NCBI RefSeq assembly: GCF_014644415.1
Contig: NZ_BMKQ01000001.1
Location: 1,106,861-1,170,860, forward strand
Length of the DNA stretch: 64,000 nt
Origin: Marmoricola endophyticus
Lineage (GTDB): Bacteria > Actinomycetota > Actinomycetes > Propionibacteriales > Nocardioidaceae
Reading direction: 5' to 3'
Made by a program: the position numbers and the translations under genes
Shown: piece by piece, positions 49,303-64,000 of the stretch
How the letters are laid out: each line of letters starts with the position of its first letter
How positions within the stretch are numbered: the first letter of the stretch is position 1
The notes under the pieces: generated by a model
The model's input: only the letters and a program-made list of their open reading frames with translations
What the model was told of the DNA's origin: nothing
Database searches by the model: none

Positions 49303-50069
49303 CGGCGCAGGATCCGGCGGCGCGCCACGCGGCACGGCTCGCGCCGTACGTCGAGCCGCACCTGGCCCGTCGGCGCCAGCAGGAGAAGCACGCCGTCCAC
49401 GACTTCCTGTTCACGTACTACTCCTTCCGGCCCGCTCAGCTGCTGCGGTGGCTGCCTCCCGGCCCCGTGCCGGAGGCCAGGCGGCCGCTGGCCGAGGCGA
49501 CGACGAGGCTGCTGCGGGCGACCGCCGGCCGCGAGGGCAACTTCGGCTGCTTCGGGATGCACGAGTGGGCGATGGTCTACCGCGCACCGCAGACCCGGCA
49601 CCCGCAGCCGCTGCGCCTCGGCCCTCAGGGCACCGACCAGGTGGTGGAGGGGCACCGGCTGGGGTGCAGCCACTGGGACGCGGTCCGCTTCTTCACCCCT
49701 CCCGCGCTGCCGCGGAACACGCTGCGCCCCTTCAAGGACGACCGCGCCGACTTCGAGCAGCCGGGGTGCCTGCACGCGACGATGGACCTCTACAAGCACG
49801 CCTACCGGTTGGTCGAGGTGGTGGGCTCGGACCTCGTGGCCGACGCCTTCGAGCTCGCCTGGGACGTCCGCGTCGTCGACATGCGAGCCGCGCCGTACGA
49901 CCTCACCGGGGTCGTCCTCGACCCGTACGGGACCGAGTGGACCCCGATCGCCGTCGAGACGCCCGCGGGCAAGAGGGAGTACGCCGACCTGCAGCGCGGC
50001 TTCGCCGAGCGCGCCGCACCGATCCGTCGGCGCCTCGCCGACCGGCTCGAGGAGGCGCTCGCCGGCTGA
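49299..50069 (+). CDS. Conserved actinobacterial protein (family sometimes labelled 3-methyladenine DNA glycosylase)
   Basis: A 256-residue soluble protein. Its sequence (EPHLARRRQQEKHAVHDFLF, TYYSFRPAQLLRWLPPGP, GMHEWAMVYRAP, FFTPPALPRNTLRP, GCLHATMDLYKHAYR) is that of an actinobacterial family commonly labelled 3-methyladenine DNA glycosylase. I see no HhH-GPD or AAG motif, so that label is doubtful. The conserved Trp/Tyr/His/Asp blocks suggest an enzyme. GTG start overlaps the preceding gene (GTGA). Confidence 0.75.
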   Translation: MTAQDPAARHAARLAPYVEPHLARRRQQEKHAVHDFLFTYYSFRPAQLLRWLPPGPVPEARRPLAEATTRLLRATAGREGNFGCFGMHEWAMVYRAPQTRHPQPLRLGPQGTDQVVEGHRLGCSHWDAVRFFTPPALPRNTLRPFKDDRADFEQPGCLHATMDLYKHAYRLVEVVGSDLVADAFELAWDVRVVDMRAAPYDLTGVVLDPYGTEWTPIAVETPAGKREYADLQRGFAERAAPIRRRLADRLEEALAG

Positions 50070-50086
50070 ACTCGTGCGGGCCGGTG

Positions 50087-50342
50087 GTCTCGACAGGCTC
50101 GACCTCCGGTGGTCGCGGCCGGCGGCGACCTCGGGCGCGCGGTGGGTGGTCTCGACGGGCTCGACCTCCGGTGGTCGCGGCCGGCGGCGATCTCGGGCGC
50201 GCGGTGGGTGGTCTCGACAGGCTCGACCTCCGCTGGTCGCGCCACCGCCCGACCTGCGGACGGCGGTGGTGGTCTCGACAAGCTCGACCTCCGACGGTCG
50301 CGGTCGGTGGGCGACCTCGGGTGCGCGGTGGCCGGTCTCGAC
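50087..50342. repeat. 62-bp tandem repeat array (four units plus a truncated fifth)
   Basis: GTCTCGAC begins at 50087, 50149, 50211, 50272 and 50335, a period of 61-63 bases. Each unit runs GTCTCGACAGGCTCGACC, TCCGGTGGTCGCGGCC and a GC-rich stretch ending CGCGCGGTGG(GTG). The core matches the dispersed REP-like element at 39 and 57 kb. Unit 3 diverges in its second half and the fifth breaks off after GTCTCGACATG. It lies in a 590-base stretch after the 256-residue gene. Confidence 0.9.
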
Positions 50343-50368
50343 ATGTCGGACCGGTCCGCTTGTTGCGC

Positions 50369-50386
50369 CTAGTCACAAATGACTAG
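50369..50386. promoter_or_regulatory. Palindrome CTAGTCA-CAAA-TGACTAG
   Basis: A perfect 7-bp inverted repeat with a four-base AAA-containing spacer, lying just after the tandem array in an AT-richer patch. Such symmetry and spacing fit an operator for a dimeric MarR- or TetR-type repressor, but no such gene is adjacent. Confidence 0.4.
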
Positions 50387-50458
50387 ACCAGGAATCGCAC
50401 CGGTTGCATCTGTCGCTGACCACTCCCGCAGCCTCGTAGCGGCGGTTTGACTACTCAC

Positions 50459-50501
50459 CAGTCCGCGTCGTGCCGCACGGGGGTCGGTACGACGCGGACT
50501 G
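50459..50501. repeat. 13-bp inverted repeat (hairpin)
   Basis: CAGTCCGCGTCGT (50459-50471) and its exact complement ACGACGCGGACTG (50489-50501) flank a 17-base loop. The stem is strong. It may end transcription from either side; no T-run follows. 50502-50661 otherwise holds nothing recognisable before the small zinc-finger gene. Confidence 0.5.
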
Positions 50502-50661
50502 ACTGTCGTCACCCTCGCAGCACCGGTCGAGATCCTCCGAAGTGACTACCCCGACGGGCCGTCCGGATCATGTCGGACCCGTTCTCGGCGTTTCGCCCGT
50601 CACCCGGGCGGGTGAGGGGTTCTCCTTGGTGCACGCAGTCCCACCGCACCTGGAGCACGTC

Positions 50662-50814
50662 ATGTCCCCCTCGGTCCTCGACCAGACCACGTCCGCCTCT
50701 ACGCTCGTCCCCCCGCCGCGTACCGCGAGCGTCCACGCCTGCGACTGCGGCCAGGACCTCGACGTCTGCCACGCGGGACACTGCCCGCGCTGCGGTCGCA
50801 CCCTGCGCGCCTGA
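50662..50814 (+). CDS. 50-residue Cys-rich (zinc-ribbon-like) protein
   Basis: ATG 50662, with GGAG eight bases upstream, opens a 50-residue protein ending HACDCGQDLDVCHAGHCPRC followed by GRTLRA. The five cysteines and two histidines in 20 residues suggest a small zinc site. A longer in-frame version from 50542 exists but its N-terminal part is unlikely coding. It precedes the convergent kinase gene by 22 bases. Family not recognised. Confidence 0.45.
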   Translation: MSPSVLDQTTSASTLVPPPRTASVHACDCGQDLDVCHAGHCPRCGRTLRA

Positions 50815-50836
50815 CCCGGGCGCGGGGCGGCTCGGC

Positions 50837-52441
50837 TCAGACGAGACCGGCGACCCACCCGAGCACCCCGCCCGACCACGGTGCGCTCGACGCGGGAGCC
50901 CAGACCGGCCCCGACGCGACGACCGCGCCGACGAGAGCGGCTGCGAGGACCAACGACGCCACCACGACGAAGACACCGGCGTACTCGCGCTCCGCCGCGC
51001 GAGCGACACCGGCGTGCACCGTCTCGCGCACCCGGCCACCGCCGGGTCCCCACCACAGACAGGTCGCCAGCACGGCACCGGCCAGCAGCAGCCCGACCGG
51101 GAGCGACGGGCCGAACAGCGCCTCCACCAGGCCGAAGACCAGTGCCGCGGTCACCCCGCAGGCGACCAGCAGCACCGAGCCGAAGGCCGCAACGAACGCG
51201 TGCAGCGGCAGACCGATCGCCGCTCTCGGCAGGTCGTGCCAGGCCCGACGACCACCGCGCACCACCCGGCGGACGTTCATCCGCTCCCTCACCACCGAGG
51301 TCGTGCGCAGCACCCAGACGACGCCGAGCAGCACCAGCACGCCGGCGTACGGCGCGTACGCGACGACCCCCGCGACGACGGCGAGCAGCGCGACGACCTG
51401 GGCGCGCACCAGCAGACCGGATCCGCGGGACGCGGTGACCGGGGCCGGTAGCGGCGGCGGCTCCTCGGCCGGCCGCCGGGCGGGGACGTACACCCCGGCC
51501 GGTTGCGGCGTGCTCCGTGCCGGCACGACCCGCGAGTCGGTGCCGACGTACGTGGGCGCCTCTCCCCCGTTCACCGGCGCCGGCACCGAGCGCACGGGCT
51601 CGGTCCACCGGCTCTCCTGCCGGCTCGCGCGCGCCACGCCGGTCCGCTCCGCGAGCCACGACAGCAGCTCCGCCAGGCTCGGTCGCCGGTGAGGCTCCGG
51701 GTCCAGCGCACGCTCGACCAGCGAGCGGACGGGTTCGGGGACGCCGGTGAGGTCGTGCTCACCGTTGCGGATCCGGTCGAGGACGGCCATCGCCGGGCCG
51801 GTGCCGTAGGGCGCCCGGCCGGTCGCCGCGAACGCGACCGTCGCGGCCCAGGCGTGCACGTCGGAGGCTGTCGTCGCGGGGTCGCCGTACAGGATCTCGG
51901 GCGAGAGGTAGCCGGGCGTGCCGAGCAGCCAGCCGGTGCGGGTCAGGCGGACGTCGTCGGCGACCCGGGCCAGCCCGAAGTCGATGAGGACCGGGTTGCG
52001 ACCCTCCATGAGCACGTTGGACGGCTTGATGTCGCGGTGCACCACACCGACGTCGTGGACCGCGCGCAGGCCCTCGGCGAGACCGACCGCGAAGTGCAGC
52101 AGGTCCGGTCCGCTCAGCGGGCCCTCCTCGCGCACGTGCTCGTGCAGCGGGAGGCCGGGCACGTAGCGGGTGGCGACGTACGGCGTCGGGCCCTGGCTGT
52201 CGGCGTCGACGATCTCGGCCACCCGGAAGCTGTGGACACGACGCAGCGAGGAGACCTCGCGGGCCAGCCGGTCGCGGGCCTCCTGGTCGCCGACGACGTG
52301 CGGCCGCAGCACCTTCAGGGCGACCCGCCGGCCGTCCGGGGCCTGGGCCAGGTGCACGATGCCCATGCCGCCCTCGCCGAGCCGGGTCATCAGGCGGTAG
52401 CCGCCGACCTGGCTCGCGGGCTCGTGGGCAGTACTGGTCAC
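50837..52441 (-). CDS. Membrane-anchored Ser/Thr protein kinase (PknB-like)
   Basis: A 534-residue Hanks-type kinase. Kinase domain at about residues 12-275: GEGGMGIVHLA (ATP loop), VALKVLR (Lys), VVHRDIKPSNVLM (catalytic loop), LIDFGLARV (DFG) and LGTPGYLSPE. A Pro-rich linker is followed by about five membrane spans, with no PASTA domains. GTG 52441 is chosen because TACCAT (52448-52453) lies six bases upstream. No phosphatase or target gene is adjacent. Confidence 0.93.
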   Translation of the reverse strand: MTSTAHEPASQVGGYRLMTRLGEGGMGIVHLAQAPDGRRVALKVLRPHVVGDQEARDRLAREVSSLRRVHSFRVAEIVDADSQGPTPYVATRYVPGLPLHEHVREEGPLSGPDLLHFAVGLAEGLRAVHDVGVVHRDIKPSNVLMEGRNPVLIDFGLARVADDVRLTRTGWLLGTPGYLSPEILYGDPATTASDVHAWAATVAFAATGRAPYGTGPAMAVLDRIRNGEHDLTGVPEPVRSLVERALDPEPHRRPSLAELLSWLAERTGVARASRQESRWTEPVRSVPAPVNGGEAPTYVGTDSRVVPARSTPQPAGVYVPARRPAEEPPPLPAPVTASRGSGLLVRAQVVALLAVVAGVVAYAPYAGVLVLLGVVWVLRTTSVVRERMNVRRVVRGGRRAWHDLPRAAIGLPLHAFVAAFGSVLLVACGVTAALVFGLVEALFGPSLPVGLLLAGAVLATCLWWGPGGGRVRETVHAGVARAAEREYAGVFVVVASLVLAAALVGAVVASGPVWAPASSAPWSGGVLGWVAGLV

Positions 52442-52447
52442 CGCAGA

Positions 52448-52453
52448 ATGGTA
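52448..52453 (-). promoter_or_regulatory. Leaderless -10 of the kinase gene
   Basis: TACCAT on the minus strand, six bases before GTG 52441 and without a Shine-Dalgarno. It supports this start over two longer alternatives. Confidence 0.55.
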
Positions 52454-52538
52454 TCGGGCGGGGCCCGGCGGACCGGTCATCCACGTGGTCCCCACGAGCC
52501 GGGGGAAGATCGCCTCGACCCGCTCGGTTGGGCGGACC

Positions 52539-53315
52539 ATGACCCACAACAGCTACGCAGTCTCCGGCAAGGTCGTCCTCGTCACCGGCGGTGGCTCCGG
52601 CATCGGCCGCGCCATCACCCGTGCCTTCCTCGACAACGGCGCGACCGTCGCGGTCGTCGGCCGACGTGCGGAGGCGCTCGAGGAGACCCTGGCCGGGTAC
52701 GACGACGACCGCGCGCTGGCCGTGCAGGGCGACCTGTCCACGGCGGCGGGTGTCCGCGAGGTCGTGGAGACCGTCGTCGGCAAGCTGGGCCGGCTCGACG
52801 TGCTGGTCAACAACGCCGCGACGTACTCCGCGCAGGACATCACCGAGCTCTCCGACGAGGAGTGGGACGGCTTCCGCAGCACGAACATCGACGCGTTCGT
52901 CCACCTGGCGCGGGCCGTGCTGCCCGAGCTGGAGAAGACCGGCGGCAACGTCGTGGTCACCGGGTCGGTGTCGGGGATGCGCGGCGACTGGGGCCAGGCG
53001 GCGTACAACGCGACCAAGGCCGCCGTGATGAACCTCGTGCAGTCCCTCGCCCTGGACTGGGGCGGTCGCGGCGTGCGGCTGAACTCGGTCGCGCCCGCCT
53101 TCACCCTCACCGACGCCACCGCGGGGGTCGGGCGCGACGAGGAGTCGCTGGCGCCGTTCGTCAACCGGATCGCGCTGGGGCGTCCGGGCACGCCGGAGGA
53201 CATCGCCCCGGCCGTGCTGTTCCTCGCCAGCGACGACGCGGCGTACGTCACGGGCGCCACGCTCACCGTCGACGGGGGCACGACCGCCTCCACCGGGCAG
53301 CCGCACGTGGAGTGA
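52539..53315 (+). CDS. SDR-family oxidoreductase
   Basis: A 258-residue classical short-chain dehydrogenase. TGGGSGIGRAI (about residues 17-27), VNNAAT, the catalytic Ser in VTGSVSGMRG, and YNATK (Tyr about 157, Lys about 161) are in place. The C-terminus FLASDDAAYVTGATLTVDGG is typical. Probably uses NADP(H); the substrate is unknown. It converges on the secreted-protein gene by three bases. Confidence 0.93.
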   Translation: MTHNSYAVSGKVVLVTGGGSGIGRAITRAFLDNGATVAVVGRRAEALEETLAGYDDDRALAVQGDLSTAAGVREVVETVVGKLGRLDVLVNNAATYSAQDITELSDEEWDGFRSTNIDAFVHLARAVLPELEKTGGNVVVTGSVSGMRGDWGQAAYNATKAAVMNLVQSLALDWGGRGVRLNSVAPAFTLTDATAGVGRDEESLAPFVNRIALGRPGTPEDIAPAVLFLASDDAAYVTGATLTVDGGTTASTGQPHVE

Positions 53316-53318
53316 GGC

Positions 53319-53879
53319 TCAGGCGGGGCTGCGCGCCAGGTTGGTGATCGTGATGTCGTCACCCGTCGTCGAGCTCTCGTTGCCGTAGACGAAGGACAGG
53401 GCGACGGGATAGCACCCCGACGTGGTCGCCTGGTAGGTCGCGTTGGACACCGAGCCGTTGCCGGTCGCGGTGCCGACCGTGGTGACCGTGCTGTTCGTGA
53501 CCGTCGTGCCGTTGACCACCAGTGTGAACACGACCGACCTCGGGTTGTCGACGTAGCGGTAGAAGTTGAAGCTGAAGGTGTAGGTCGTGCCGGCGAGGAA
53601 GCGGACCCGCTGGTTCGCGGTCACGGTGACCGACGCCGCGCCCGTGGACCCGGGGTCCTGGACGACCTTGTAGCCACCGGTCTGGAACCCGTCGGTCCCA
53701 CCCGCGGCCGAGATGTTCTGGTTGGTCACCGTCCAGGCGGAGGCGCTCGGCGTCACGAAGTTGTTGCACTGCGACGCGGCGAACGCCGGCGCCGCGGTCG
53801 CGGTGAGCACGACCGGCGTCGTCCACACGCCGGCGCGCACCAGCTGACGCCGGCGAGGTCGGGGGTCGATCTCGGAAAT
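53319..53879 (-). CDS. Secreted Tat-type protein, probable ATT start
   Basis: A secreted protein of 186 residues if translated from ATT 53877-53879. That start gives ISEIDPRPRRRQLVRAGVW, a twin-arginine-type N-region, then a hydrophobic stretch and AAPAFA-AS cleavage; TGAGGA lies six bases before the ATT. GTG 53840 would cut off the arginines. The mature part (CNNFV...GCYPVALSFVYGNES) is Thr/Ser/Asn-rich with two Cys, likely a beta-sandwich. Base composition is lower in GC than its neighbours. Function unknown, perhaps an extracellular binding protein. Confidence 0.7.
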   Translation of the reverse strand: MSEIDPRPRRRQLVRAGVWTTPVVLTATAAPAFAASQCNNFVTPSASAWTVTNQNISAAGGTDGFQTGGYKVVQDPGSTGAASVTVTANQRVRFLAGTTYTFSFNFYRYVDNPRSVVFTLVVNGTTVTNSTVTTVGTATGNGSVSNATYQATTSGCYPVALSFVYGNESSTTGDDITITNLARSPA

Positions 53880-53951
53880 AGCGCGTCCTCAGCCTCGGGA
53901 AATGGCCGAGCCAGAGCCTAACAATGACTTGGATCGAGGCGCAGCAGATCC

Positions 53952-55043
53952 TCAGATCACCCGGCGCATCCACCCGAAGGTGTCGTCCACACGGCCGAAC
54001 TGGATGCCGACGAGCTGCTCGCGGATGGCCATCGTCAGCTCGCCGGGCTCGGTCGCGCCCTCGACCGAGCCGCCGTCCCAGTGCAGCGTGCCGACCGGGG
54101 TGACGACGGCGGCGGTGCCGCACGCGAACACCTCGGTGATCTCGCCCGACGCGACACCCTCGCGCCACTCGTCGATGCCGAACGGCCGCTCCTCGACCGG
54201 GTGCCCCATCTTGCCGGCGAGCTCGATGATCGCCGAGCGGGTGATTCCCTCCAGGATCGTGCCGAGCGCGGGGGTGACGATCCGGCCGTCGGCGTAGAGG
54301 AAGTAGAGGTTCATCCCGCCGAGCTCCTCGACGTACTTCCCCTCGGCGCCGTCGAGGAAGACCACCTGGTCGCAGCCGTGCGCGCTGGCCTCCTGCTGGG
54401 CGACCAGCGAGGAGGCGTAGTTGCCGCCGGTCTTGGCGGCGCCCATGCCACCGCGACCGGCGCGGGTGTACTCCTCGGTCAGCCACAGGCTGAGCGGCTT
54501 GATGCCGCCCTTGAAGTACGCCCCGGCGGGCGAGGCGATGACCATGAAGGTGACGTGCTGCGAGGGCCGCACCCCGAGGAACGCCTCGGAGGCGAACATG
54601 AACGGGCGCAGGTAGAGGCTGGCCTCGCCCGACGAGCCGCCGTACGGGGGCACCCAGCGCTCGTCGGCGGCGACGAGCGCGTCGACGGCGGCGAGGAAGT
54701 CCTCCTCGGGCAGCACCGGCAGCGCGAGTCGCCCGGAGGAGGTCGCCATCCGGCGGGCGTTCTCCTCGGCACGGAAGGTCCACACCGAGCCGTCCTCGTG
54801 CCGGTAGGCCTTCATGCCCTCGAAGATCTCCTGCGCGTAGTGCAGGACGGCCGTCGCCGGGTCGAGGCTGAGCGGTCCGTACGCCTCCACCCGCGCGTCG
54901 TGCCAGCCTCGCTCCGGCGTCCACTCGACGACGTACATGTGGTCGGTGAAGTACGTCCCGAACCCCGGCGCGGTGAGGATCTCGGCGACCTCGGCGTCGC
55001 TGCGCGGGGTGGTGGTCGGGGTGGTGGTGATCTCGAGGGGCAT
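53952..55043 (-). CDS. ilvE: Branched-chain amino acid aminotransferase
   Basis: A 363-residue class IV PLP aminotransferase for leucine, isoleucine and valine. The PLP lysine is in GMGAAKTGGNYASSL (about residue 200), with LYLRPFMFASEAFLGVRPS before it and VVFLDGAEGKYVEELGGMN after. ATG 55043 is leaderless: TAGGAT (55051-55056) lies seven bases upstream. It follows leuB by 27 bases on the same strand and acts in the same pathway. Confidence 0.97.
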   Translation of the reverse strand: MPLEITTTPTTTPRSDAEVAEILTAPGFGTYFTDHMYVVEWTPERGWHDARVEAYGPLSLDPATAVLHYAQEIFEGMKAYRHEDGSVWTFRAEENARRMATSSGRLALPVLPEEDFLAAVDALVAADERWVPPYGGSSGEASLYLRPFMFASEAFLGVRPSQHVTFMVIASPAGAYFKGGIKPLSLWLTEEYTRAGRGGMGAAKTGGNYASSLVAQQEASAHGCDQVVFLDGAEGKYVEELGGMNLYFLYADGRIVTPALGTILEGITRSAIIELAGKMGHPVEERPFGIDEWREGVASGEITEVFACGTAAVVTPVGTLHWDGGSVEGATEPGELTMAIREQLVGIQFGRVDDTFGWMRRVI

Positions 55044-55070
55044 GAGTCGGATCCTAGGTCGCGGTGTGGG

Positions 55071-56147
55071 TCAGAGTCGGGCGGCGATCGCGTCGCCCAC
55101 CTCGGGGGTACGTCGTCTCGCCGCCCCCGCCTGCTCGGCGAGGTCCTCGAGCACCGCCTGCTCCACGGCGGCCGCCTGGGCGGCGAGCCCGACGTGCTCG
55201 AGGAGGAGTGCAGCGGACAGGATCGCCGCCGTCGGGTCGGCGACCTGCTGACCGGCGATGTCGGGGGCCGATCCGTGGACCGGCTCGAACATCGACGGGG
55301 TGGTGCGGTCGGCGTTGATGTTGCCGCTGGCGGCCAGACCGATGCCGCCGGTCACGGCGCCGGCGAGGTCGGTGACGATGTCGCCGAAGAGGTTGTCGGT
55401 GACGATCACGTCGAAGCGCTGCGGGTCGGTGACCAGGTGGATCATCGTCGCGTCGACGTGCATGTAGTCGACCTCCACCTCGGGGAACTCGGCGGCCACC
55501 TCCTGGGTGAGCCGCCACCACACCGCCCCGGCGTGGGTGAGGACGTTGGTCTTGTGGACCAGCGTCAGCCGCTTGCGCCGTCCCGCGGCGCGGGCGAAGG
55601 CGTGGCGGACCACGCGCTCCACCCCGTACGCCGTGTTCACCGAGACCTCGGTGGCCACCTCGGCCGGCGTGCCGACCCGCAGGGCCCCACCGTTGCCGGT
55701 GTACGGCCCCTCGGTGCCCTCGCGGACGACGACGAAGTCGACGTCACCCCTGGCCAGCACCGCGTCCGAGAGCGGCGAGGTCACGCCGGGGAGGATCCGG
55801 GACGGCCGGAGGTTGACGTAGTGGTCGAGCTCGAACCGCAGCCGCAGCAGCAGCCCGCGCTCGAGCAGGCCGGGCGGGAGGTTGGGGTCACCGGGCTTCC
55901 CACCCACCGCGCCGAGGAGGATCGCGTCGTGTCCACGGATCTCCTCGAGCACGGGGTCCGGCAGCACCTCGCCGGTCGCGAGGTAGTGCTCGGCGCCGAG
56001 GTCGTAGCGGGTCGTGGCCAGAGCGACCTCGGCGGGCACCACCGCCTGCAGCACCTTGAGCGCCTCGGCCGTGACCTCCGGCCCGATCCCGTCGCCGGGG
56101 AGGACGGCGAGACGAAGGGCGGCCGGGTCTGCTGCGGTGGTGGACAT
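55071..56147 (-). CDS. leuB: 3-isopropylmalate dehydrogenase
   Basis: A 358-residue NAD-dependent beta-decarboxylating dehydrogenase of leucine synthesis. It begins with [20 protein letters not shown] in parts, then [19 protein letters not shown], the substrate-binding [24 protein letters not shown] and [17 protein letters not shown] 56147 is chosen because TAGGTT (56155-56160) lies seven bases upstream. A 44-residue gene and a BCAA leader lie 28 bases and more upstream on the same strand. Confidence 0.97.
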
Positions 56148-56154
56148 GCGAGCG

Positions 56155-56160
56155 AACCTA
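56155..56160 (-). promoter_or_regulatory. Leaderless -10 of leuB
   Basis: TAGGTT on the minus strand, seven bases before the leuB ATG. With the leader upstream this gives leuB two possible promoters. Confidence 0.5.
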
Positions 56161-56175
56161 GTTCGCGGGTGCGCC

Positions 56176-56310
56176 CTAGTTGTCGTCGGGTCGCTCACCG
56201 CTCCAGGCGCCGCCGCCGTCGCGCAGGTCGAGCGCGCGCTGGACGGCATGGCTGGTCGGGCTGTCGGGGTCGTACTTGCTGGGGCCCCACTCGGGGTACA
56301 TGTCGTACAT
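56176..56310 (-). CDS. 44-residue small protein downstream of a BCAA leader
   Basis: ATG 56308-56310 with GAGGAG nine bases upstream opens [18 protein letters not shown] and ends RPDDN-TAG (44 residues). It is rich in Tyr, Asp, Pro and Trp, very soluble and without a membrane span. Translation signals are clearly better than chance. It follows the BCAA leader peptide and hairpin and precedes leuB by 28 bases. Such a small protein under amino-acid attenuation may bind an enzyme of the pathway, but nothing in the sequence proves it. Confidence 0.65.
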
Positions 56311-56473
56311 CTGATTCTCCTCAGAAGATCTCACGGGGAAGGAACAACAGGGGTTCCGAGGAGCCGGTGACGAACCGGTCGTGGGTGGGCCGGCTCGCAG
56401 ACGCCGGAGGTTCCTGGTCGAGGTGACCGGAGCGGCTCGCTGCGGAGGCGGCAGACCAGGGGATGCAGAGACT

Positions 56474-56512
56474 CCGCGGCGAGGGGGCCTGCCTTAAGAG
56501 GCCTCGCCGCGG
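56474..56512 (-). promoter_or_regulatory. Attenuator-like hairpin after the BCAA leader peptide
   Basis: CCGCGGCGAGG (56474-56484) and its complement CCTCGCCGCGG (56502-56512) form an 11-bp perfect stem; an inner GCCT/AGGC pair adds to it. On the minus strand the first arm is made of the last codons of the leader (Arg-Gly-Glu-Ala), so ribosome position decides whether the hairpin forms. No T-run follows directly, so it may act as pause or anti-antiterminator. Confidence 0.6.
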
Positions 56513-56541
56513 CGCGCGATAAGTACGAGCACGTTCCGCAT
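56494..56541 (-). CDS. Branched-chain amino acid leader peptide
   Basis: ATG 56541 encodes MRNVLVLIARRGEAS then TAA (15 residues). Codons 4-8 are Val-Leu-Val-Leu-Ile, just what an attenuator sensing all three branched-chain amino acids needs. A strong hairpin overlaps its 3' end. It lies about 350 bases upstream of leuB on the same strand, ahead of a 44-residue gene. Actinobacterial leader peptides of this type are known at ilv and leu genes. The Shine-Dalgarno is weak (GAGCC). Confidence 0.7.
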   Translation of the reverse strand: MRNVLVLIARRGEAS

Positions 56542-56643
56542 GACAGGCTCGAACGTACGCCCGCCCACCCCGCGCCGGTACCGGTTTCGGTGACACGTCT
56601 CTCATCGTGAGACCGCGGTCCAGCATCCGGCAGACTCGGCGAG

Positions 56644-57210
56644 GTGAGTGCCCCGCCCGACCTCCCGCCGATCGTCTCCCGCGCGTTCGACGTCTCCCGC
56701 CGGGCGGGCTACGTCTCCTTCTGCCGCAACGAGACCGGTCGGCTGCTCGCCGTGCTCGCGGCCACGCGCGGCGGCACGATGGCGGAGTTCGGCACCGGCT
56801 GCGGCGTGGGCACCGCCTGGCTGCGGTCGGGACTCACCGGCCCCGCGCACATCCTGACCGCGGAGCGCGACCAGGCGCTGGCCGGCGCCGCGGCGGAGAT
56901 CTTCGAGGGCGACGACCAGGTCGAGGTGGTCGCGGCGGACTGGTCGACGCTGCGCGACCGTGCCCCGTTCTCCCTGCTGTTCCTGGACGCCAACGCCACC
57001 GACCACGCCAGCGTGGACGCCGTCGCCGACCTCGTCGAGCCCGGCGGGGTCGTCGTCCTCGACGACATCTCCCCGTGCGAGTCCTGGCCGCCGGTGACGT
57101 ACGGGCGCGTCGACGGCCTGCGCGAGGGGTGGCTGCTCGACGAGCGGTTCGCCGCCGCCGAGGTGCTCGTCGCCTCCGACTCCGCGGCACTGCTGGCGAC
57201 GCGGCGCTGA
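56644..57210 (+). CDS. Class I SAM-dependent methyltransferase (O-methyltransferase-like)
   Basis: A 188-residue Rossmann methyltransferase. The SAM loop is EFGTGCGVGTAWL (about residues 49-61), acidic residue after strand 2 in ILTAERD, and LLFLDANATDH near the active site, followed by VVLDDISPCESW, resembling catechol-type O-methyltransferases. GTG start; CAGACT (56631-56636) seven bases upstream suggests a leaderless transcript. Divergent from the leuB leader. The substrate is unknown. Confidence 0.85.
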   Translation: MSAPPDLPPIVSRAFDVSRRAGYVSFCRNETGRLLAVLAATRGGTMAEFGTGCGVGTAWLRSGLTGPAHILTAERDQALAGAAAEIFEGDDQVEVVAADWSTLRDRAPFSLLFLDANATDHASVDAVADLVEPGGVVVLDDISPCESWPPVTYGRVDGLREGWLLDERFAAAEVLVASDSAALLATRR

Positions 57211-57240
57211 CCGTCGCTGGTCACCTCCCTGGGCACCTCA

Positions 57241-57341
57241 CCGGGTCTCGACGTCCTCCTCGCCTAGCGGCTCGTCAGGCTCGACCACCGTGGTCACCGC
57301 AGGCACCGCAACCACCGGAGGTTGAGCTTGTCGAGACCCGG
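57241..57341. repeat. REP-like element with 12-bp inverted ends and a 45-base dispersed repeat
   Basis: CCGGGTCTCGAC (57241-57252) and GTCGAGACCCGG (57330-57341) are exact inverted repeats flanking the space between two convergent genes. Inside, 57245-57289 matches 39095-39139 closely (GTCTCGACGTCCTCC... to ...CAGGCTCGACCACC). The same core builds the 50-kb tandem array. It may also end transcription. Confidence 0.8.
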
Positions 57342-57343
57342 GG

Positions 57344-58120
57344 TCAGCGGGTGAGGAACGTACGCGCGGCGGCGACCAGCGCGCGGGCGTAGCGGTCCCG
57401 GCCGCCGGCGGAGCTCATCGCAGCGGCGTCACCGGAGTTGCGCATGTTGCCCAGCTCGACCATCACCGCGGGCGGCTGCGCCCAGTTCAGGGTGCCGAGG
57501 TCGGAGCGGAAGGACAGCGCGGACCCGGAGCCGACGTACGAGGAGCGGGCGAAGCCGGCGCGCTGCAGTGCGGCACGCGTGTCCTCGGCGTACGTCGTCG
57601 AGCGCGCCCGCAGCCGTGCGGGCTCACCCGCGCGGTCCGAGACGATGACGTGGAAGCCGTGGGCGCCCGGCGAGGACCCGTCGCCGTGCAGGCTGAGCAG
57701 CAGGTCGGCCCCGTTCGCGGCCTTGCCGCGCGCATCCACGCACGGCCCCCAGGCCGCGGCGGAGTTCGTCGACCGGGTCAGCACCACCCGCGCGCCGAGC
57801 GCCCGCAGCCGGTCGCGGACCCGGGTGCCCACCTCCCACGTGAAGGTCGCCTCGGGATAGCCGGCGTTCGTCGCCGTCCCCGTGGAGTTGCAGGGCTTGC
57901 GCAGCCCACGGGCGTCGACCAGCCGACCGATCTGCGCCGGGTGCCGCCCGTTGCCGAGCTGGTGCCCGGGGTCGATCACGACCGTCCGGCCGGCAAGCGG
58001 ACGGGCAGCGGCAGCCGCAGCCGCGGCGGCACGCTCGCGCTCGCGTGCGGGCTGCTGGCCGAACGCACCCGCCAGCTGCGCGGCCACCAGCGCGGTGGCC
58101 AGGCCCTTCGCGATCAGCAC
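57344..58120 (-). CDS. N-acetylmuramoyl-L-alanine amidase (Amidase_3)
   Basis: A 258-residue cell-wall hydrolase cleaving the lactyl-peptide bond. Signal sequence (IAKGLATALVAAQLAGAFG) and an Ala-rich linker precede the catalytic domain: zinc ligands in VVIDPGHQ (His) and LLSLHGDG (His), glutamates in GYPEATFTW and VMVELGN. GTG 58120 has GGAGGG nine bases upstream; TTG 58129 is too close to it. Likely acts outside the cell in division or remodelling. Confidence 0.9.
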   Translation of the reverse strand: MLIAKGLATALVAAQLAGAFGQQPARERERAAAAAAAAARPLAGRTVVIDPGHQLGNGRHPAQIGRLVDARGLRKPCNSTGTATNAGYPEATFTWEVGTRVRDRLRALGARVVLTRSTNSAAAWGPCVDARGKAANGADLLLSLHGDGSSPGAHGFHVIVSDRAGEPARLRARSTTYAEDTRAALQRAGFARSSYVGSGSALSFRSDLGTLNWAQPPAVMVELGNMRNSGDAAAMSSAGGRDRYARALVAAARTFLTR

Positions 58121-58204
58121 CGGGCTCAACCCTCCCGGAGGGCCGCCACGTCGGCACGGCGATCCGGCTCGTGGTCGTCGCTCATGGCCGGGACCCTACG
58201 CGGC

Positions 58205-58210
58205 TAGCCT
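58205..58210 (+). promoter_or_regulatory. Leaderless -10 of the MFS gene at 58218
   Basis: TAGCCT seven bases before GTG 58218, with no Shine-Dalgarno. Confidence 0.5.
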
Positions 58211-58217
58211 GCGTCCG

Positions 58218-59585
58218 GTGACGTCGTCAACCAGTTCTCCGACCCGCACCCCCTCGGTCGCCGCCCGCCTGGACCGGCTCCCGGTCACCCGTACCCACGT
58301 GCTGGCCACGATGGTGATCGGGCTGGGGCTGTTCTTCGACGCGTACGAGAACTTCCTCGCCGGGACGATCGGCAAGGTCCTCCAGATCGACCTCGACCTG
58401 TCGCAGACCGAGCTGAGCGCGCTCCTCGGGTCGGCGTTCGTCGGCCAGTTCCTCGGCGCCGTCGTGATGGGCCGTTTCGCCGACCGCTTCGGGCGCCGCC
58501 GCGCGTTCATGATCAACCTGGCCGTCTACTCGGTGTTCTCGCTGATCGGCGCGTTCAGCCCGAACGCGATCTTCCTCGTCGTGACCCGGTTCGTCGCCGG
58601 CGTCGGCATCGGCGCGGAGTACGCGCTGGCCGACACGTACCTCTCGGACCTGATGCCCTCCGACGAGCGCGGCCGCTTCATCTCCTGGGCGTACACCGTC
58701 TCCTTCCTCGGCGTGCCCGTCGTCGGGCTGATGGCGCGCTTCCTGGTGCCGCTGGAGCCGTGGGGCGTCGACGGCTGGCGCTACCTCTTCGTCTTCGGTG
58801 CGCTCGGCTCGTTCCTCGTGTGGCTGGTGCGCCGCAACCTGCCGGAGTCCCCGCGCTGGCTCGAGCTCGAGGGCCGCCACGAGGAGGCCGAGGAGCTGGT
58901 CTCGGCGATGGAGCAGGAGGCGGTCGCCGCGGGGCACACGCTCCGTGAGCCGGACCTCTCGCTGCAGCCCGGCCGCCGCGAGCCGCTGCGCGTCTCGACG
59001 CTCTTCAGGGCGCCGTACACCCGCCGCACGATCATGCTCTGGCTGCTCAGCGCGCTGGAGGTCTTCGGCTACTACGGCTTCGGCACCCTGGCGCCGCTGG
59101 TGCTGGTCGCCAAGGGGTACGACGTCGTCAACTCGCTCGGCTACATCGCCGCGACGTACGCCGGCTACCCGCTCGGTGCCCTGCTCGCGGTGCCGATCGT
59201 GGAGCGCATCGAGCGCAAGTACCTGGTCATGGTCACCGCGGCCCTGATGGCGGTGTTCGGGCTCGCCTTCGGCCTGGCCGGCACCGGGCTGCTGGTGATC
59301 GTCTTCGGGCTCGCCTACACGGTGTCGAGCAACGTGTTCTCGAACGCGTACCACGTCTACCTCGCCGAGTCGTACCCGACGAAGGTCCGTGCGACCGCGG
59401 CCGGCGCGGCGTACTCGCTGTCCAAGCTGGTCACCGGCGGCCTGCCGTTCCTGCTGCTGCCGGTCCTCGACGCGAGCGGAGCGACGCCGGTCTTCAGCGT
59501 CGTCGCCGTGGCGATGGCGCTGCTGGTGCTCAACGTCGGCGTGCTCGGGCAGCGGACGATGGGGCGGTCCGCGGACGCGACGTAG
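58218..59585 (+). CDS. MFS transporter (sugar/aromatic-acid type)
   Basis: A 455-residue twelve-span transporter. It has GRFADRFGRRRAFM in the TM2-3 loop (about 87-100), GVGIGAEYALADTYLSDLMP near TM4-5 and RRNLPESPRWLELEGR in the central loop (about 198-213), the PESPRW motif of sugar-porter and aromatic-acid MFS proteins. The second-half signature SNAYHVYLAESYPTKVRATA is also typical. The substrate is not known; neighbours give no clue. Confidence 0.9.
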   Translation: MTSSTSSPTRTPSVAARLDRLPVTRTHVLATMVIGLGLFFDAYENFLAGTIGKVLQIDLDLSQTELSALLGSAFVGQFLGAVVMGRFADRFGRRRAFMINLAVYSVFSLIGAFSPNAIFLVVTRFVAGVGIGAEYALADTYLSDLMPSDERGRFISWAYTVSFLGVPVVGLMARFLVPLEPWGVDGWRYLFVFGALGSFLVWLVRRNLPESPRWLELEGRHEEAEELVSAMEQEAVAAGHTLREPDLSLQPGRREPLRVSTLFRAPYTRRTIMLWLLSALEVFGYYGFGTLAPLVLVAKGYDVVNSLGYIAATYAGYPLGALLAVPIVERIERKYLVMVTAALMAVFGLAFGLAGTGLLVIVFGLAYTVSSNVFSNAYHVYLAESYPTKVRATAAGAAYSLSKLVTGGLPFLLLPVLDASGATPVFSVVAVAMALLVLNVGVLGQRTMGRSADAT

Positions 59586-59595
59586 CGCGCGTCTC

Positions 59596-59601
59596 TAGAG
59601 T
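59596..59601 (+). promoter_or_regulatory. Leaderless -10 of the lipase gene at 59608
   Basis: TAGAGT six bases before ATG 59608, with no Shine-Dalgarno. Confidence 0.5.
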
Positions 59602-59607
59602 CGGCCC

Positions 59608-60417
59608 ATGAGCACCCTCGAGTGGGACGTGGCCGGGACGCACGGGCGGGTCGCCGTGCGCGAGTGGAACGGCTCGGCACCCACCTGGCTGTGCCTGGTC
59701 GCGCACGGGTACGGCGAGCACATGGGCCGCTACGAGCGGCTCGCCGCAGAGCTGGTCGCCGACGGTGCTGTGGTCGTCGGGCCGGACCACACGGGGCACG
59801 GCGAGAGCGACGGCGAGCGCGTGCTGGTCGAGTCGTACGACGACGTCGTCGCCGACCTGCACGCCGTCGCCAGGCGCACGCTCGCCGACCACCCGGGGCT
59901 TCCGGTGGTGCTGCTCGGGCACTCGATGGGCGGGATGATCGCCGCGCGCTACGTGCAGCTGCACGCCCGCGTGGTCGACGTGCTCGTGCTCTCCAGCCCG
60001 GTGCTGGGTCGCTGGGCGCCGGTGACCGACCTGCTCGGCCTCCCCGAGATCCCGGACGGCCCGCTGGACACCTCGACGCTCTCGCGCGACCCCGAGGTCG
60101 GGGCGGCGTACGAGGCGGACCCGCTGGTCTGGCACGGCCCCTTCAAGCGCCCGACCATCGCCGCGATGGCGAGGACGATGAAGGACATCACCGACGGCCC
60201 CGACCTCGGCTCCCTGCCGACCCTGTGGATCCACGGCGACGCCGACACGCTGGTGCCGATCGACGGCACCCGGGTGGGGATCCCCGAGCTCGGCGCGAGC
60301 GCCCTGACCGAGCGCACCTACCCCGGCGGCCGGCACGAGCTGTTCAACGAGACGAACCGCGACGAGGTGGTCGCGGACGTACGGGCCTTCGTGCGGGAGA
60401 ACCTGCCGGCAGGCTGA
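59608..60417 (+). CDS. Alpha/beta hydrolase (monoacylglycerol lipase-like)
   Basis: A 269-residue serine hydrolase. The oxyanion HGYGEHMGRY (about residues 33-42), nucleophile elbow GHSMGG (about 111-116), Asp in LWIHGDADTLVP and His in GGRHELFNE make a complete triad, all in the style of monoglyceride lipases. ATG start is leaderless. It converges on the YczE-like gene and overlaps its 3' end by 74 bases. Confidence 0.92.
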   Translation: MSTLEWDVAGTHGRVAVREWNGSAPTWLCLVAHGYGEHMGRYERLAAELVADGAVVVGPDHTGHGESDGERVLVESYDDVVADLHAVARRTLADHPGLPVVLLGHSMGGMIAARYVQLHARVVDVLVLSSPVLGRWAPVTDLLGLPEIPDGPLDTSTLSRDPEVGAAYEADPLVWHGPFKRPTIAAMARTMKDITDGPDLGSLPTLWIHGDADTLVPIDGTRVGIPELGASALTERTYPGGRHELFNETNRDEVVADVRAFVRENLPAG

Positions 60418-61045
60418 CCAGGAACCGCGGCAGCAGCAGCTGCACCAGTGGTCCGATCACGAGCGCGTAGGCGACGGTGGCCACGCCGAAGGTGCCGCCG
60501 AGCAGCCAGCCGGCGACCACGACGGTGACCTCGATCGAGGTCCGCACGAGCCGCAGCGAGAGACCCGTGCGGCGGTGGAGGCCGGTCATCAGGCCGTCGC
60601 GCGGGCCCGGGCCGAGCTGCGCACCGACGTAGCAGGCCGTCGCCGCGGCGTTGAGCACGATGCCGCCCGCCGCGAGCGCGGCACGGCCCCACCACGTGCC
60701 CGGGTCGGACAGGACGGCGAGCCCGAGGTCGGCGAAGAGCCCGACCAGCACGGCGTTGAGCACGGTGCCCAGGCCGGGCAGCTCCCGGATCGGGACCCAC
60801 AGCGCGAGCACGAGCACGCTGACCGCGATCACGATCGCGCCGAAGTCCCACGGCAGGTGCCGGGCGATCCCCTGGTGCAGCACGTCCCACGGCATCGCCC
60901 CGACGTGGGCGCGCAGCATCATGGCCGCACTGACCCCGTACGCCGCCAGCCCGACCAGCAGCTGCGGGAGGCGGCGTCCCAAGCGGCCGGCGCGCACCTG
61001 CGCCACGGGCCCGAGGCGGTCCAGCGTCGTCGTCACGGTGTCCAT
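60344..61045 (-). CDS. YczE-like membrane protein
   Basis: A 233-residue membrane protein with about five spans. The pattern LLVGLAAYGVSAAMMLRAHVG, PWDVLHQGI and GAQLGPGPRDGLMTGLHRRTG is that of the YczE/YitT-like family. In many genomes yczE is divergent from a MocR-type regulator (YczR) that controls it, as here (52 bases between). ATG 61045. The Arg/Pro-rich tail beyond about residue 215 overlaps the lipase gene and may be dispensable. Confidence 0.88.
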   Translation of the reverse strand: MDTVTTTLDRLGPVAQVRAGRLGRRLPQLLVGLAAYGVSAAMMLRAHVGAMPWDVLHQGIARHLPWDFGAIVIAVSVLVLALWVPIRELPGLGTVLNAVLVGLFADLGLAVLSDPGTWWGRAALAAGGIVLNAAATACYVGAQLGPGPRDGLMTGLHRRTGLSLRLVRTSIEVTVVVAGWLLGGTFGVATVAYALVIGPLVQLLLPRFLVSLPAGSPARRPVRPRPPRRGSSR

Positions 61046-61097
61046 CTCACGCGGAAGTGGCCTGCACGGGAATAGCCAATCGGTGTTCACTGGTCCG
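61046..61097. promoter_or_regulatory. Intergenic region between yczE-like and MocR genes
   Basis: 52 bases holding inverted TGGC (61057-61060)...GCCA (61073-61076) and a near-palindrome TCACTGG-T-CCGGTGA that runs into the regulator start. Plausible operator for the MocR-type protein. Exact site not determined. Confidence 0.35.
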
Positions 61098-62528
61098 GTG
61101 ACCCGCACCGTCTCCGCCCGCCGCGTGGCCGACCTCGTCGGCGACTTCGACCGCGAGCCCGCCTACCGCGGGCTGGCCGAGGGACTGCGGGTGCTGATCA
61201 CCGACGGGCGGGTCGCCACCGGGACGCGGCTGCCCAGCGAGCGCGACCTGACCGCGGCGCTGGACGTCAGCCGGACGACGGTGACCCGGGCGTACGCCGA
61301 GCTCCGCGAGCACGGCTACCTCGTCTCCCGCCAGGGCTCCGGCAGCCTCGCCGCACTGCCCGGGCCGAGCACCCGCTCGGACCACCTGCTCCACCCCAGC
61401 TCCGTGACCCCGGACGAGATCGACCTGACGATCGCCGCCGGGCCGCCGGGGCCGGGCGTCGCCGCGGCGTACGACGCGGCCGTCGCGGCGCTGCCGGCGT
61501 ACCTCTCGGGGAGCGGCTACCACCCCTCCGGCCTGCCGGTGCTGCGCGAGGCGGTCGCGCAGTCGTACGCCGACCGCGGCCTACCGACGTCGCCGGACCA
61601 GGTCCTCGTCGTCCCCGGGGCCCTGGCCGGGGTCGCCGTCGCCGCGCGGGCGCTGCTCGGTACCGGCGACCGGGTGCTGCTGCAGAGCCCGACGTACCCC
61701 AACGCGATCGCGGCGCTGCGCGGCTCCCGCCTCGCCGGGGTCGACACCTCCCTCGACGGTGCGGACCAGCACGCCGCAGACCTGGTCGCCGCGGTGCGGC
61801 AGGTGGCGCCGCGGGTCGGCTACCTCGTCCCGGACTTCCACAACCCGACCGGCCTCCTGCTCGACGAGGACGGTCGGGCCCGCGTGGCCGCCGCGCTCGG
61901 TGTGACCGGCACGACCGCCGTGGTGGACGAGTCGCTCGCCGCGCTGCGCCTCGACGGTGACGCGATGCCGGTGCCGTTGGCGGCGCACGCGACGTCGGCG
62001 TGGTCGATCGGCAGCCTGTCGAAGACGCACTGGGGCGGCCTGCGTGTGGGGTGGCTGCGCGTGCCTCGTGCCGACGTCGACCGGGCCTTCCGCGCCCGAC
62101 TCGCCCTCGACCTCGGCTGCCCCGTCGTGGAGCAGCTGGCCGCCGCCCACCTGATTGGCACGCCCGGCCTGCTGGAGCACCGCCGCGAGCAGCTCGCGGC
62201 GTCCCAGGCCGCGGCGTACGACACCCTGCGCAGGCACCTGCCCGACTGGCGCGTCCCGCGACCGCTCGGCGGGCTCAGCCTGTGGTGCGAGCTGCCCGAG
62301 CCGCTGTCGACGACCCTGGTCGCCCGGGCCGCCGACCACGGCGTGCTGCTCGCGCCGGGCCCGGCCTTCGCACCCGAGGGCGGGCTGGCGCGCTTCGTCC
62401 GCGTCCCGTACGGGCTGCCGCCACACCTGCTGACCGAGGCCGGCGCACGCCTCGGGGCGGCGTGGCAGGACACGCTGGCCGCCCCGGGGCGGATCGGTCG
62501 ACCGACGGACCCGACGCTGGTCGCCTGA
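61098..62528 (+). CDS. MocR/GntR-type PLP-dependent regulator (YczR-like)
   Basis: A 476-residue fusion of a GntR winged helix (RGLAEGLRVLITDGRVATGTRLPSERDLTA in pieces, about residues 25-55) and an aspartate-aminotransferase-like domain. The PLP lysine is in SIGSLSKTHWGG (about residue 311); VPDFHNPTGLLLDE and DES (about 275-277) hold the cofactor. It is divergent from a YczE-like gene, the pattern reported for YczR. GTG start. Ligand unknown, possibly a PLP adduct. Confidence 0.92.
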   Translation: MTRTVSARRVADLVGDFDREPAYRGLAEGLRVLITDGRVATGTRLPSERDLTAALDVSRTTVTRAYAELREHGYLVSRQGSGSLAALPGPSTRSDHLLHPSSVTPDEIDLTIAAGPPGPGVAAAYDAAVAALPAYLSGSGYHPSGLPVLREAVAQSYADRGLPTSPDQVLVVPGALAGVAVAARALLGTGDRVLLQSPTYPNAIAALRGSRLAGVDTSLDGADQHAADLVAAVRQVAPRVGYLVPDFHNPTGLLLDEDGRARVAAALGVTGTTAVVDESLAALRLDGDAMPVPLAAHATSAWSIGSLSKTHWGGLRVGWLRVPRADVDRAFRARLALDLGCPVVEQLAAAHLIGTPGLLEHRREQLAASQAAAYDTLRRHLPDWRVPRPLGGLSLWCELPEPLSTTLVARAADHGVLLAPGPAFAPEGGLARFVRVPYGLPPHLLTEAGARLGAAWQDTLAAPGRIGRPTDPTLVA

Positions 62529-63306
62529 TCAGAGGAGCGCGAGCAGCGGCTCGTACGGCGCCGGGTCGGGGTCGCTCAGCCACCGGAAGGCGAGGGCCCT
62601 CAGCATCGCCTGACGTCGATCGCCGGCGCCCCACTCCACGACCGCCCGCTCGGGCACGTCGAAGCGGACCACCGCGTCCAGCACGCACACCGCCTCGGCC
62701 CACCGCACCGGCCGCCAGGCCGGCGAGACGTCGATGACGACGGCCGACCCGCGCGCGTCGAGCAGGACGTTGCCGGCCAGGTCCGCGTGGACCAGCTGGT
62801 CGGGACCGAGCGGAGTGTCGTCGAGCCGGTCGGCGATCGAGGCGAGGCCGGCGGCGCGCAGGTCCTCGTACGGAACCGAAGGCGAGCCGCTCGGCGAGCG
62901 CCCAGCGGTCGGTACGCGCGTCGAGGACGTCCGGCCTGACGGGGACGACCGAGGCCAGCCGCGCGTGCAGCAGCCGTCCGGCCGCGAGGACGACCCGGAG
63001 GTCGCGGCACGGCGACGTGCCCGGCTCGAACCGGGACGCACCCCAGCCCTCGACCACCCAGGAGCCGTCCCTGGCCGGGACCGGCATCGCGACCCGCAGC
63101 CCGCCGCCCTCCTCGTCCAGGCGCACCGCGAGCCTGGCCAGGACGGGGTTCAGCCACTCCGACACCACGGGGTCGCGACCCGGCGCCAGCGCGAGGTCGC
63201 CCGCGCTGAACGCCCCGCCCCCGATCGCCGCCGGGTCGTCGGGGACGGCGAAGAGGTCCAGCACGCGCGCCGGCGGGCCGCTCAGGTGCTCAGAGGGTCT
63301 CGCCAC
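62529..63306 (-). pseudogene. Phosphotransferase-fold protein (TIGR02569-like), frameshifted
   Basis: Two frames give one protein of about 258 residues. The 5' part (GTG 63306) runs to RWALAERLAFGS, then the frame changes at GGTTCC (plus 62872-62877) and continues VPYEDLRAAGLASIADRL, LVHADLAGNVLL (the phosphotransferase catalytic HxDxxxxN) and VIDVSPAWRPVRW. Dropping one T restores one frame. The order matches an actinobacterial APH-like family known as TIGR02569. The start overlaps the tenA 3' end by 17 bases. A real mutation or a sequencing error. Confidence 0.75.
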
Positions 63307-63952: not shown

Positions 63953-64000
63953 CGCAGTCCCTCCAGGTGGTCGACGGGTCCGTGGCCGGCGCCGTACACC
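63949..64000 (-). CDS. thiD: C-terminal end of a hydroxymethylpyrimidine (phosphate) kinase, cut by the window
   Basis: Only the last 16 codons are visible: VYGAGHGPVDHLEGLR then TGA. GHGPVDH resembles the GHGPxxHF end of ThiD. It is fused by ATGA to tenA. The identification rests on this end and on context. Confidence 0.6.
   Translation of the reverse strand, partial: VYGAGHGPVDHLEGLR

Follow-up and report, generated by a model that had tools for sequence, protein, structure and literature searches.

What does a leader peptide rich in branched-chain amino acid (BCAA) codons control when it stands ahead of leuB, and the first gene behind it encodes a protein of 44 residues? The question arises from a stretch of 64,000 nucleotides of Marmoricola endophyticus DNA (hereafter the window). 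A preliminary description of it, made from the letters alone, had reported a leader with Val-Leu-Val-Leu-Ile codons, a perfect 11-bp stem, a 44-residue ORF bearing GAGGAG, and leuB with its own -10. The coordinates for the leader, the stem, the ORF and leuB were correct, and all four features were recovered when the region was reread on the minus strand: 56541-56494 encodes MRNVLVLIARRGEAS, the stem arms lie at 56512-56502 and 56484-56474 with the first inside the leader codons, the small ORF runs over 56310-56176, and TAGGTT stands 7 nt before the leuB ATG. The features are listed below in window coordinates, in the direction of transcription.

56597..56613 (-): perfect dyad GTCTC-N7-GAGAC, candidate operator upstream of the leader promoter
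56552..56557 (-): candidate -10 box of the leader transcript, TACGTT, 10 nt 5' of the leader ATG
56494..56541 (-): leader peptide ORF MRNVLVLIARRGEAS, 15 codons, probably leaderless or nearly so
56518..56532 (-): Val-Leu-Val-Leu-Ile codons GTG CTC GTA CTT ATC, of which GTA and CTT are rare
56502..56512 (-): 5' arm of helix S1, within the leader codons
56486..56493 (-): 5' strand of helix S2, GGCAGGCC, in the S1 loop (pseudoknot)
56474..56484 (-): 3' arm of S1
56450..56457 (-): 3' strand of S2, GGTCTGCC
56436..56447 (-): S3, weak candidate for an alternative partner of the S1 3' arm, 11/12 pairs by eye
56311..56449 (-): spacer between pseudoknot and microprotein, 139 nt, 56 C vs 37 G, candidate Rho-entry region
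56322-56317 (-): GAGGAG (Shine-Dalgarno), 7-12 nt 5' of the ATG of the 44-codon ORF
56176..56310 (-): microprotein ORF, 44 residues
56155..56160 (-): leuB -10 box TAGGTT, leaderless-type promoter, exactly 7 nt 5' of the ATG
55071..56147 (-): leuB, 3-isopropylmalate dehydrogenase (NCBIfam NF002898)

Behind leuB sits ilvE, both genes being named by NCBIfam. On the other side, an ORF at 56644-57210 (+), methyltransferase-like by eye, is divergent and shares its intergenic region with the leader promoter.

Conservation of the leader and its promoter

Via the microprotein we fetched 131 loci, 115 of which were paired directly with a leuB start and 16 of which were left unpaired by the automatic procedure. 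In ten of these 16 (including L118) leuB lies within about 0.5 kb; it is farther away in L127 (~0.8 kb), L113 (~1.6 kb), L059 and L071 (~1.3-1.4 kb), it is broken in L103, and L131 is probably a false match. A leader and stem of the kind seen in the window were parsed in 98 of the 115 paired loci. Comparison of these loci indicates that leader, stem, 44-residue ORF and leuB are kept together across Nocardioidaceae and several other actinobacterial families. Chance is outweighed as an explanation for the leader, stem and ORF, judged by the recovery of the 44-residue ORF in 172/245 family genomes (microprotein profile, E<=0.001, own genome included), of the leader in 98/115 loci, and by the near-complete pairing of S1 described below. 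Both the leader codons and the stem, whose conservation in relatives the preliminary description had left to be checked, are thus conserved, and its BCAA leader peptide ahead of the small gene and leuB stands.

Val, Leu and Ile are all present in 95 of the 98 leuB leaders, with a strong share of rare codons: GTA accounts for 105/168 Val codons, CTT for 52/124 Leu codons and ATT for 39/106 Ile codons, as against 0/69, 1/68 and 0/27 for the same codons in the window's leuB and ilvE. Such a choice of rare Val, Leu and Ile codons may represent a tuning to tRNA charging. A TANNNT motif stands 9 or 10 nt 5' of the leader ATG in 88/98 leaders (TACGTT at 10 nt here), and at other spacings between 3 and 30 nt from the ATG in six cases only. 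This phasing suggests that the leader ORF has little or no 5' untranslated sequence, which is also reported for leuL1 of Streptomyces lividans, a leaderless leader.

Seventeen of the 115 loci had no leader by the parsing pattern. The RNA model described below was run on 24 loci, including 16 of these 17 (the last one, L041, is the same place as L020), and found the element in L020, L058, L060 and, weakly, L065; matches in L123 (E 0.005), L066 (0.23) and L117 (0.37) were excluded from the element count. No credible element accompanies the microprotein and leuB in 7/7 loci examined of family f22 (L117, L118, L119, L125, L126, L128, L130), and the same holds for some f20 and f23 loci. The f22 family appears to be Streptomyces-like, because its leuA leader is identical to S. 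lividans leuL1. Several f22 loci, L125, L126 and L128 among them, share another upstream stretch, around TTTGTAGGAGCCGAACGTCTCGC.

The dyad GTCTC-N7-GAGAC, which lies 55 nt 5' of the leader ATG in the window, recurs in 51/97 loci, perfect or with a single mismatch, in the 130 nt that precede the leader, vs 0.6 by shuffling. NdgR, a regulator of the IclR type, binds upstream of leuB in S. coelicolor, according to PMC4340878, but the sites given there (GTCC...GGAC) differ from the dyad. We dropped the dyad as a mark of a BCAA regulon: GTYTC-N7-GAGAC occurs at eight places in the own genome, and the surrounding ORFs were listed without identities.

A pseudoknot and its kinship with the LEU element of leuA

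In an alignment of 46 of the 98 leuB leaders (A2), the 11 pairs of S1 show standard pairing in 98.8% of 506 cells. Four pairs are altered on both sides, as many as in 4/500 shuffles, and the covariation score is 0.210 vs 0.154, with 0/500 shuffles as good; further pair types are no more numerous than expected by chance (376/500 shuffles), and the S1 sequence is strongly conserved among leuB leaders. A stem arisen by chance is ruled out by this conservation and covariation. Taken by itself, the window sequence shows no unusual folding energy (z -1.25, 19/200 shuffles as good).

A second helix, S2, which like the candidate -10 box of the leader had not been reported in the preliminary description, joins the loop of S1 to a stretch that lies no more than about 40 nt 3' of the stem. 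It pairs GGCAGGCC (56493-56486) with GGTCTGCC (56457-56450) in the window, and it is built elsewhere from strands such as GTAAGGCC/GGTCTTAC, GAGAGGCC/GGCCTCTC, TCGTAGGCC/GGCCTACGA or GGTCGGC/GCCGACC. At least 7 contiguous pairs were found in 83/98 loci, with 56 distinct strand pairs. The mean helix score is 19.87 vs 14.93 (sd 0.25) with swapped partners, reached in 0/200 swaps, a comparison uncorrected for kinship. The loci are related and include a few near duplicates (L005/L006, L003/L010, L020/L041), which applies to all swap tests reported here. S1 and S2 cross, and the element is therefore an H-type pseudoknot of which S1 is one half. The covariation that the preliminary description had proposed to look for among leuB upstream regions was found for both helices. 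Rfam gave no match at E<=1 for positions 50000-64000 of the window, and across 14 loci it returned three matches to miRNA models alone, below the gathering score and away from the element.

S3 repeats the 5' arm of S1 farther downstream and could compete with it for the 3' arm. Its duplex energy is -19.03 vs -14.36 with shuffled downstream sequence and -18.46 with swapped partners, the lowest of 60 swaps reaching -19.02. In 11 loci with an unusual S1 there was no matching change in S3, the own downstream strand giving -17.03 and foreign strands -17.61. We keep S3 as a weak candidate for an alternative helix.

A covariance model (R1) built from 46 leuB leaders only was then informative about relatives of the element. 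In the own genome it matches leuB with E 1.0e-14 and a second place with E 1.9e-7, the third best match being at 0.026. The second match has the leader MRHLSLLLRCRSEA and lies directly before leuA, named by NCBIfam. R1 matched 141/148 genomes of the class sample at E<=0.1 and 111/117 of the order sample at E<=0.001. Sorted by the next gene, 85 matches, which were the strongest or chosen ones rather than a random sample and do not include the own leuA and leuB, fall into 53 at leuA, 27 at leuB, 2 at leuC and 3 at another gene or a contig end. Leaders of the CRGEA/CRGGA type are recovered at leuA and leuB alike. The leuA elements have the corresponding helices in 39 parsed of 43, with an S2 score of 17.86 vs 15.85 swapped (0/300, kinship uncorrected).

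At leuA, a LEU element made of a Leu-rich leader ORF and a pseudoknot has been described in Actinobacteria (PMC1262725). Judged by its sequence, the leuB leader is a LEU-type RNA leader, a relative of this leuA element: both have a short leader ORF with branched-chain codons and a pseudoknot, and both answer to one covariance model. We write LEU-type rather than the LEU element because it stands at the microprotein and leuB, a difference of position and not of structure. As far as the accessible text of PMC1262725 goes, the two differ in the gene (microprotein and leuB here vs leuA) and in the codons, a mix of Val, Leu and Ile here (VLVLI in the window) vs a Leu run at leuA; the leuA leaders that we saw mostly carry such runs, e.g. 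LLL or LLLL. The leuB leader differs from the LEU element at leuA in three traits, namely the gene leuB, the codon mix, and a microprotein as next cistron. The leuA leader of S. lividans, leuL1 (MRFGLLLLSCRGEGL), is reported to be leaderless and without a typical terminator (PMC8079986), and it resembles the leuB leader in both respects and in its peptide plan; of the 8 leaders covered here from this source, none is at leuB. No LEU element at leuB was described among the literature matches listed, which cover mainly open-access papers.

LEU-type elements also precede leuC in L168 (leader MRRVVLLLSSRDETSF) and L204, in family f39. The L168 gene is the large subunit of 3-isopropylmalate dehydratase by NCBIfam, the L204 gene was assigned by tblastn with it, and the accessible text of PMC1262725 makes no mention of such an element before leuC. 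In L208 and L209 the element precedes a short ORF, whose product in L208 matches the LeuA allosteric domain alone (PF08502, E 2.4e-6), the match in L209 being weak (E 0.065).

The switch proposed for leuA is a base stem formed by the run of regulatory codons and the next gene's Shine-Dalgarno sequence (PMC1262725). Between pseudoknot and next gene there are 100-300 nt in 79/98 leuB loci, so that such a base stem is impossible in the same form at those loci; in the window, S2 and the Shine-Dalgarno sequence of the microprotein are ~127 nt apart. At leuB, pairing of this kind looked persuasive by eye in single loci, but the swap test in the ten compact loci gave it no support (13.45 vs 12.93 swapped, 80/500 as good). 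Pairing of the codons with the segment behind S2 scored 13.31 vs 12.52 over 98 loci, with 0/200 swaps as good (kinship uncorrected), and for the base stem at leuA itself 18/300 swaps were as good.

The microprotein and the leuB promoter

With the 44-residue sequence as the sole query, 80/98 related genomes had a match at E<=1, a threshold that admits weak matches. Besides the family genomes mentioned above, the microprotein profile matched 87/296 class genomes at E<=0.01, but only 13/296 genomes of the phylum sample, two of these matches being borderline; the profiles overlook divergent members, which bears on all these counts. Families f3 and f4 have the microprotein although the single-sequence search gave nothing significant there, and one genus of the family (g19) has a shortened form (L150, L152, L159). 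A microprotein-family ORF lies between element and leuB in all 27 leuB-linked elements examined (22/22 and 5/5), six of these ORFs being divergent and recognized by their ends (L150, L152, L154, L159, L161, L172). In L316 (G024), an intact microprotein ORF is followed by a broken leuB in a draft genome, or by an assembly error.

The usual class-wide core of the protein is A(L/V)Qx(A/S)(L/M)DxRDNGG, in its usual form ALQxALDxRDNGG; Nocardioidaceae-type members add MYxMYPxWGP before the core and RPDDN after it. The microprotein alignment A1 comprises 20 of the first 30 sequences. The ratio pN/pS in the core is 0.31 in Nocardioidaceae-type members and 0.21 in the others. The N-terminus (0.16 vs 0.83) and the tail (0.26 vs 1.10) differ between the groups, and the middle is at 1.10 in both. 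The whole-protein median dN/dS is 0.53 (6453 pairs). This regional pattern shows clear constraint on the core of the protein in both groups, and on its ends in Nocardioidaceae-type members only. The window microprotein and five other members matched 0 Pfam or NCBIfam families, and there was no sequence match in PDB. The AlphaFold model suggests a single helix, 18-32, but its confidence is low (mean pLDDT 60.7, pTM 0.27). The family is without a name in the libraries searched and seems new to description as far as the literature matches listed go, a scope that includes PMC10654065 and PMC6585502 and covers mainly open-access papers; no description of the microprotein was among them. The preliminary description had found it unusual that the first gene behind an attenuator should encode a small unknown protein: the small gene is indeed unnamed, but it is no oddity of one genome, being a conserved microprotein that accompanies leuB.

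The sequences suggest that leuB has a leaderless-type promoter of its own. TANNNT stands 6-8 nt 5' of the assigned leuB start in 97/114 loci, which extends to relatives the -10 that had been noticed in the window; the start was unassignable in 1/115 loci, and the automatic one is plainly wrong in a few (L014, L047, L081, L122, L124). In S. lividans, the -10 motif is TAnnnT and 17% of transcripts are reported to be leaderless (PMC8079986). Given this promoter, the leader may matter little for leuB.

The hexamer that begins with the microprotein stop codon reads TANNNT in 72/114 loci, nearly all of them Nocardioidaceae-type; in the window, 15 nt separate the stop codon from TAGGTT. Where a -10-like box opens with the stop codon TAG or TAA itself, as in L002, L003 and L009, the gap to leuB is 9-11 nt, a gap found in 63/106 loci. 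In Actinobacteria, a peak of 10-11 bp between leader genes and structural genes was reported and explained by re-initiation, the strongest such peak in four other groups being with UAG and the weakest with UGA (PMC4833913). Leaderless -10 boxes could contribute to this peak. In two lineages (L173, L321, L323, L333), the microprotein stop overlaps the leuB start by reading of the sequences, which is the usual sign of translational coupling.

A putative switch, its alternatives and their meaning

On balance, we consider it probable that the LEU-type leader at leuB reads the charging of BCAA tRNAs and that the state of its pseudoknot sets the expression of the microprotein and leuB. This reading draws on sequence comparison, namely the kinship with leuA, S1, S2, the phased -10 boxes, the rare-codon bias, the partial constraint on the microprotein and the steady gene order. 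The transcript would begin at or just before the leader ATG, and ribosomes on the 15-codon leader would report, through its partly rare Val, Leu and Ile codons, how well each of the three branched-chain tRNAs is charged. One arm of S1 consists of the final leader codons, and the S1 loop would pair with the segment 3' of S1 (S2) into the H-type pseudoknot, so that the position of the ribosome while the RNA folds would decide whether the pseudoknot stands. The state of the pseudoknot would then set the expression of the next cistron, the microprotein, and via the microprotein that of leuB, reached by translational coupling in some families and here by read-through, which would add to the basal output of a leaderless promoter. 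Stalling of the ribosome, a response that would switch on in starvation, and a platform of Rho-dependent termination or blocked initiation are the presumed parts of this scheme, as is whatever the microprotein may do. Of the possible platforms, Rho-dependent control over the long spacer, paired with direct control of initiation in compact families, would be the likeliest.

The preliminary description had spoken of an attenuator. In a classical one, the 11-bp stem would be an intrinsic terminator, formed whenever ribosomes pass along the leader without a stall. The actinobacterial ilvB leaders, in which a BCAA-rich leader overlaps a GC-rich stem (PMC1262725), speak for this reading, and S3 offers a candidate alternative partner. 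The ilvB leaders and the ilvB1 attenuator of Mycobacterium tuberculosis (PMC13236596) do resemble the leuB leader in their mixed BCAA codons, short leader and BCAA pathway gene, but by these sources they have a Rho-independent terminator with a U-run. At the leuB leader none was found: 56100-56700 contains 0 terminator-like sites, and no T run follows the stem. The stem loop moreover belongs to the covarying pseudoknot, and for its relative at leuA in S. lividans, too, no typical terminator is reported (PMC8079986). Because the stem is half of a covarying pseudoknot and no intrinsic terminator was found, we call the element a LEU-type leader and not a classical attenuator, a reading that we hold to be very improbable. 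Termination could instead depend on Rho, which in the absence of a stalled ribosome and pseudoknot would load on the C-rich spacer and halt transcription before the microprotein. The C-over-G skew of the spacer, measured to the first Met of the microprotein (median 170.5 nt), averages +0.168, vs -0.059 for the 150 nt that precede the leader, and is higher in 86/86 loci with a spacer of at least 60 nt; a C-rich, G-poor spacer fits Rho entry. The microprotein ORF has a skew of +0.090 itself, however, 15/86 spacers do not exceed their own ORF, and spacers below 60 nt leave little room in 12/98 loci. Rho-dependent attenuation is rather doubtful as an explanation, and it is a possible platform of the LEU-type switch, with which it is compatible.

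Two further readings concern what is translated. The pseudoknot might be a protein-binding site, as was proposed for leuA (PMC1262725), with translation of the leader being incidental. Codon mutations in S. coelicolor reportedly had no effect at ilvB and had effects inconsistent with attenuation at leuA (Craster et al. 1999, cited in PMC1262725), which weighs against the main reading and favors a switch without stalling; the strong conservation of the S1 sequence also favors such a switch. Rare Val, Leu and Ile codons at leuB and Leu runs at leuA are, however, hard to explain if the speed of translation is irrelevant, and we hold this reading to be improbable. The other reading, which has a real but minority claim, takes the 44-residue ORF for a second regulatory uORF with an inert product, whose translation hands ribosomes to leuB. 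The stop-start overlaps and the short gaps to leuB fit it, as do the lack of a confident fold and the unconstrained middle (and, outside Nocardioidaceae, N-terminus), and the RPDDN tail may be constrained as promoter DNA. Against an inert product stand the low pN/pS values, seen for the core in both groups and for the N-terminus in Nocardioidaceae-type members, the synonymous codons that vary at most conserved residues, and the retention of the core where leuB is at least 70 nt away.

For the LEU-type switch, a tentative extension, which we would rather doubt than expect, joins the pseudoknot to this undescribed actinobacterial microprotein as its direct output: low levels of charged BCAA tRNA would lead to a protein of ~27-45 residues that acts on LeuB or BCAA flux, next to a basal leaderless leuB promoter often built into the microprotein stop codon.

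An RNA class predicted at leuA in 2005 is extended here to leuB, with side findings at leuC and at a gene for a LeuA domain, and it gains a covarying pseudoknot together with a model that matches 141/148 genomes of the class sample. The leuB and leuA leaders of one genome, the former with mixed Val/Leu/Ile codons and the latter rich in Leu, form a natural pair for comparing how the element may read tRNA charging, a point on which the reported codon mutants leave room. Finally, a conserved, unnamed microprotein tied to leuB is brought to light.
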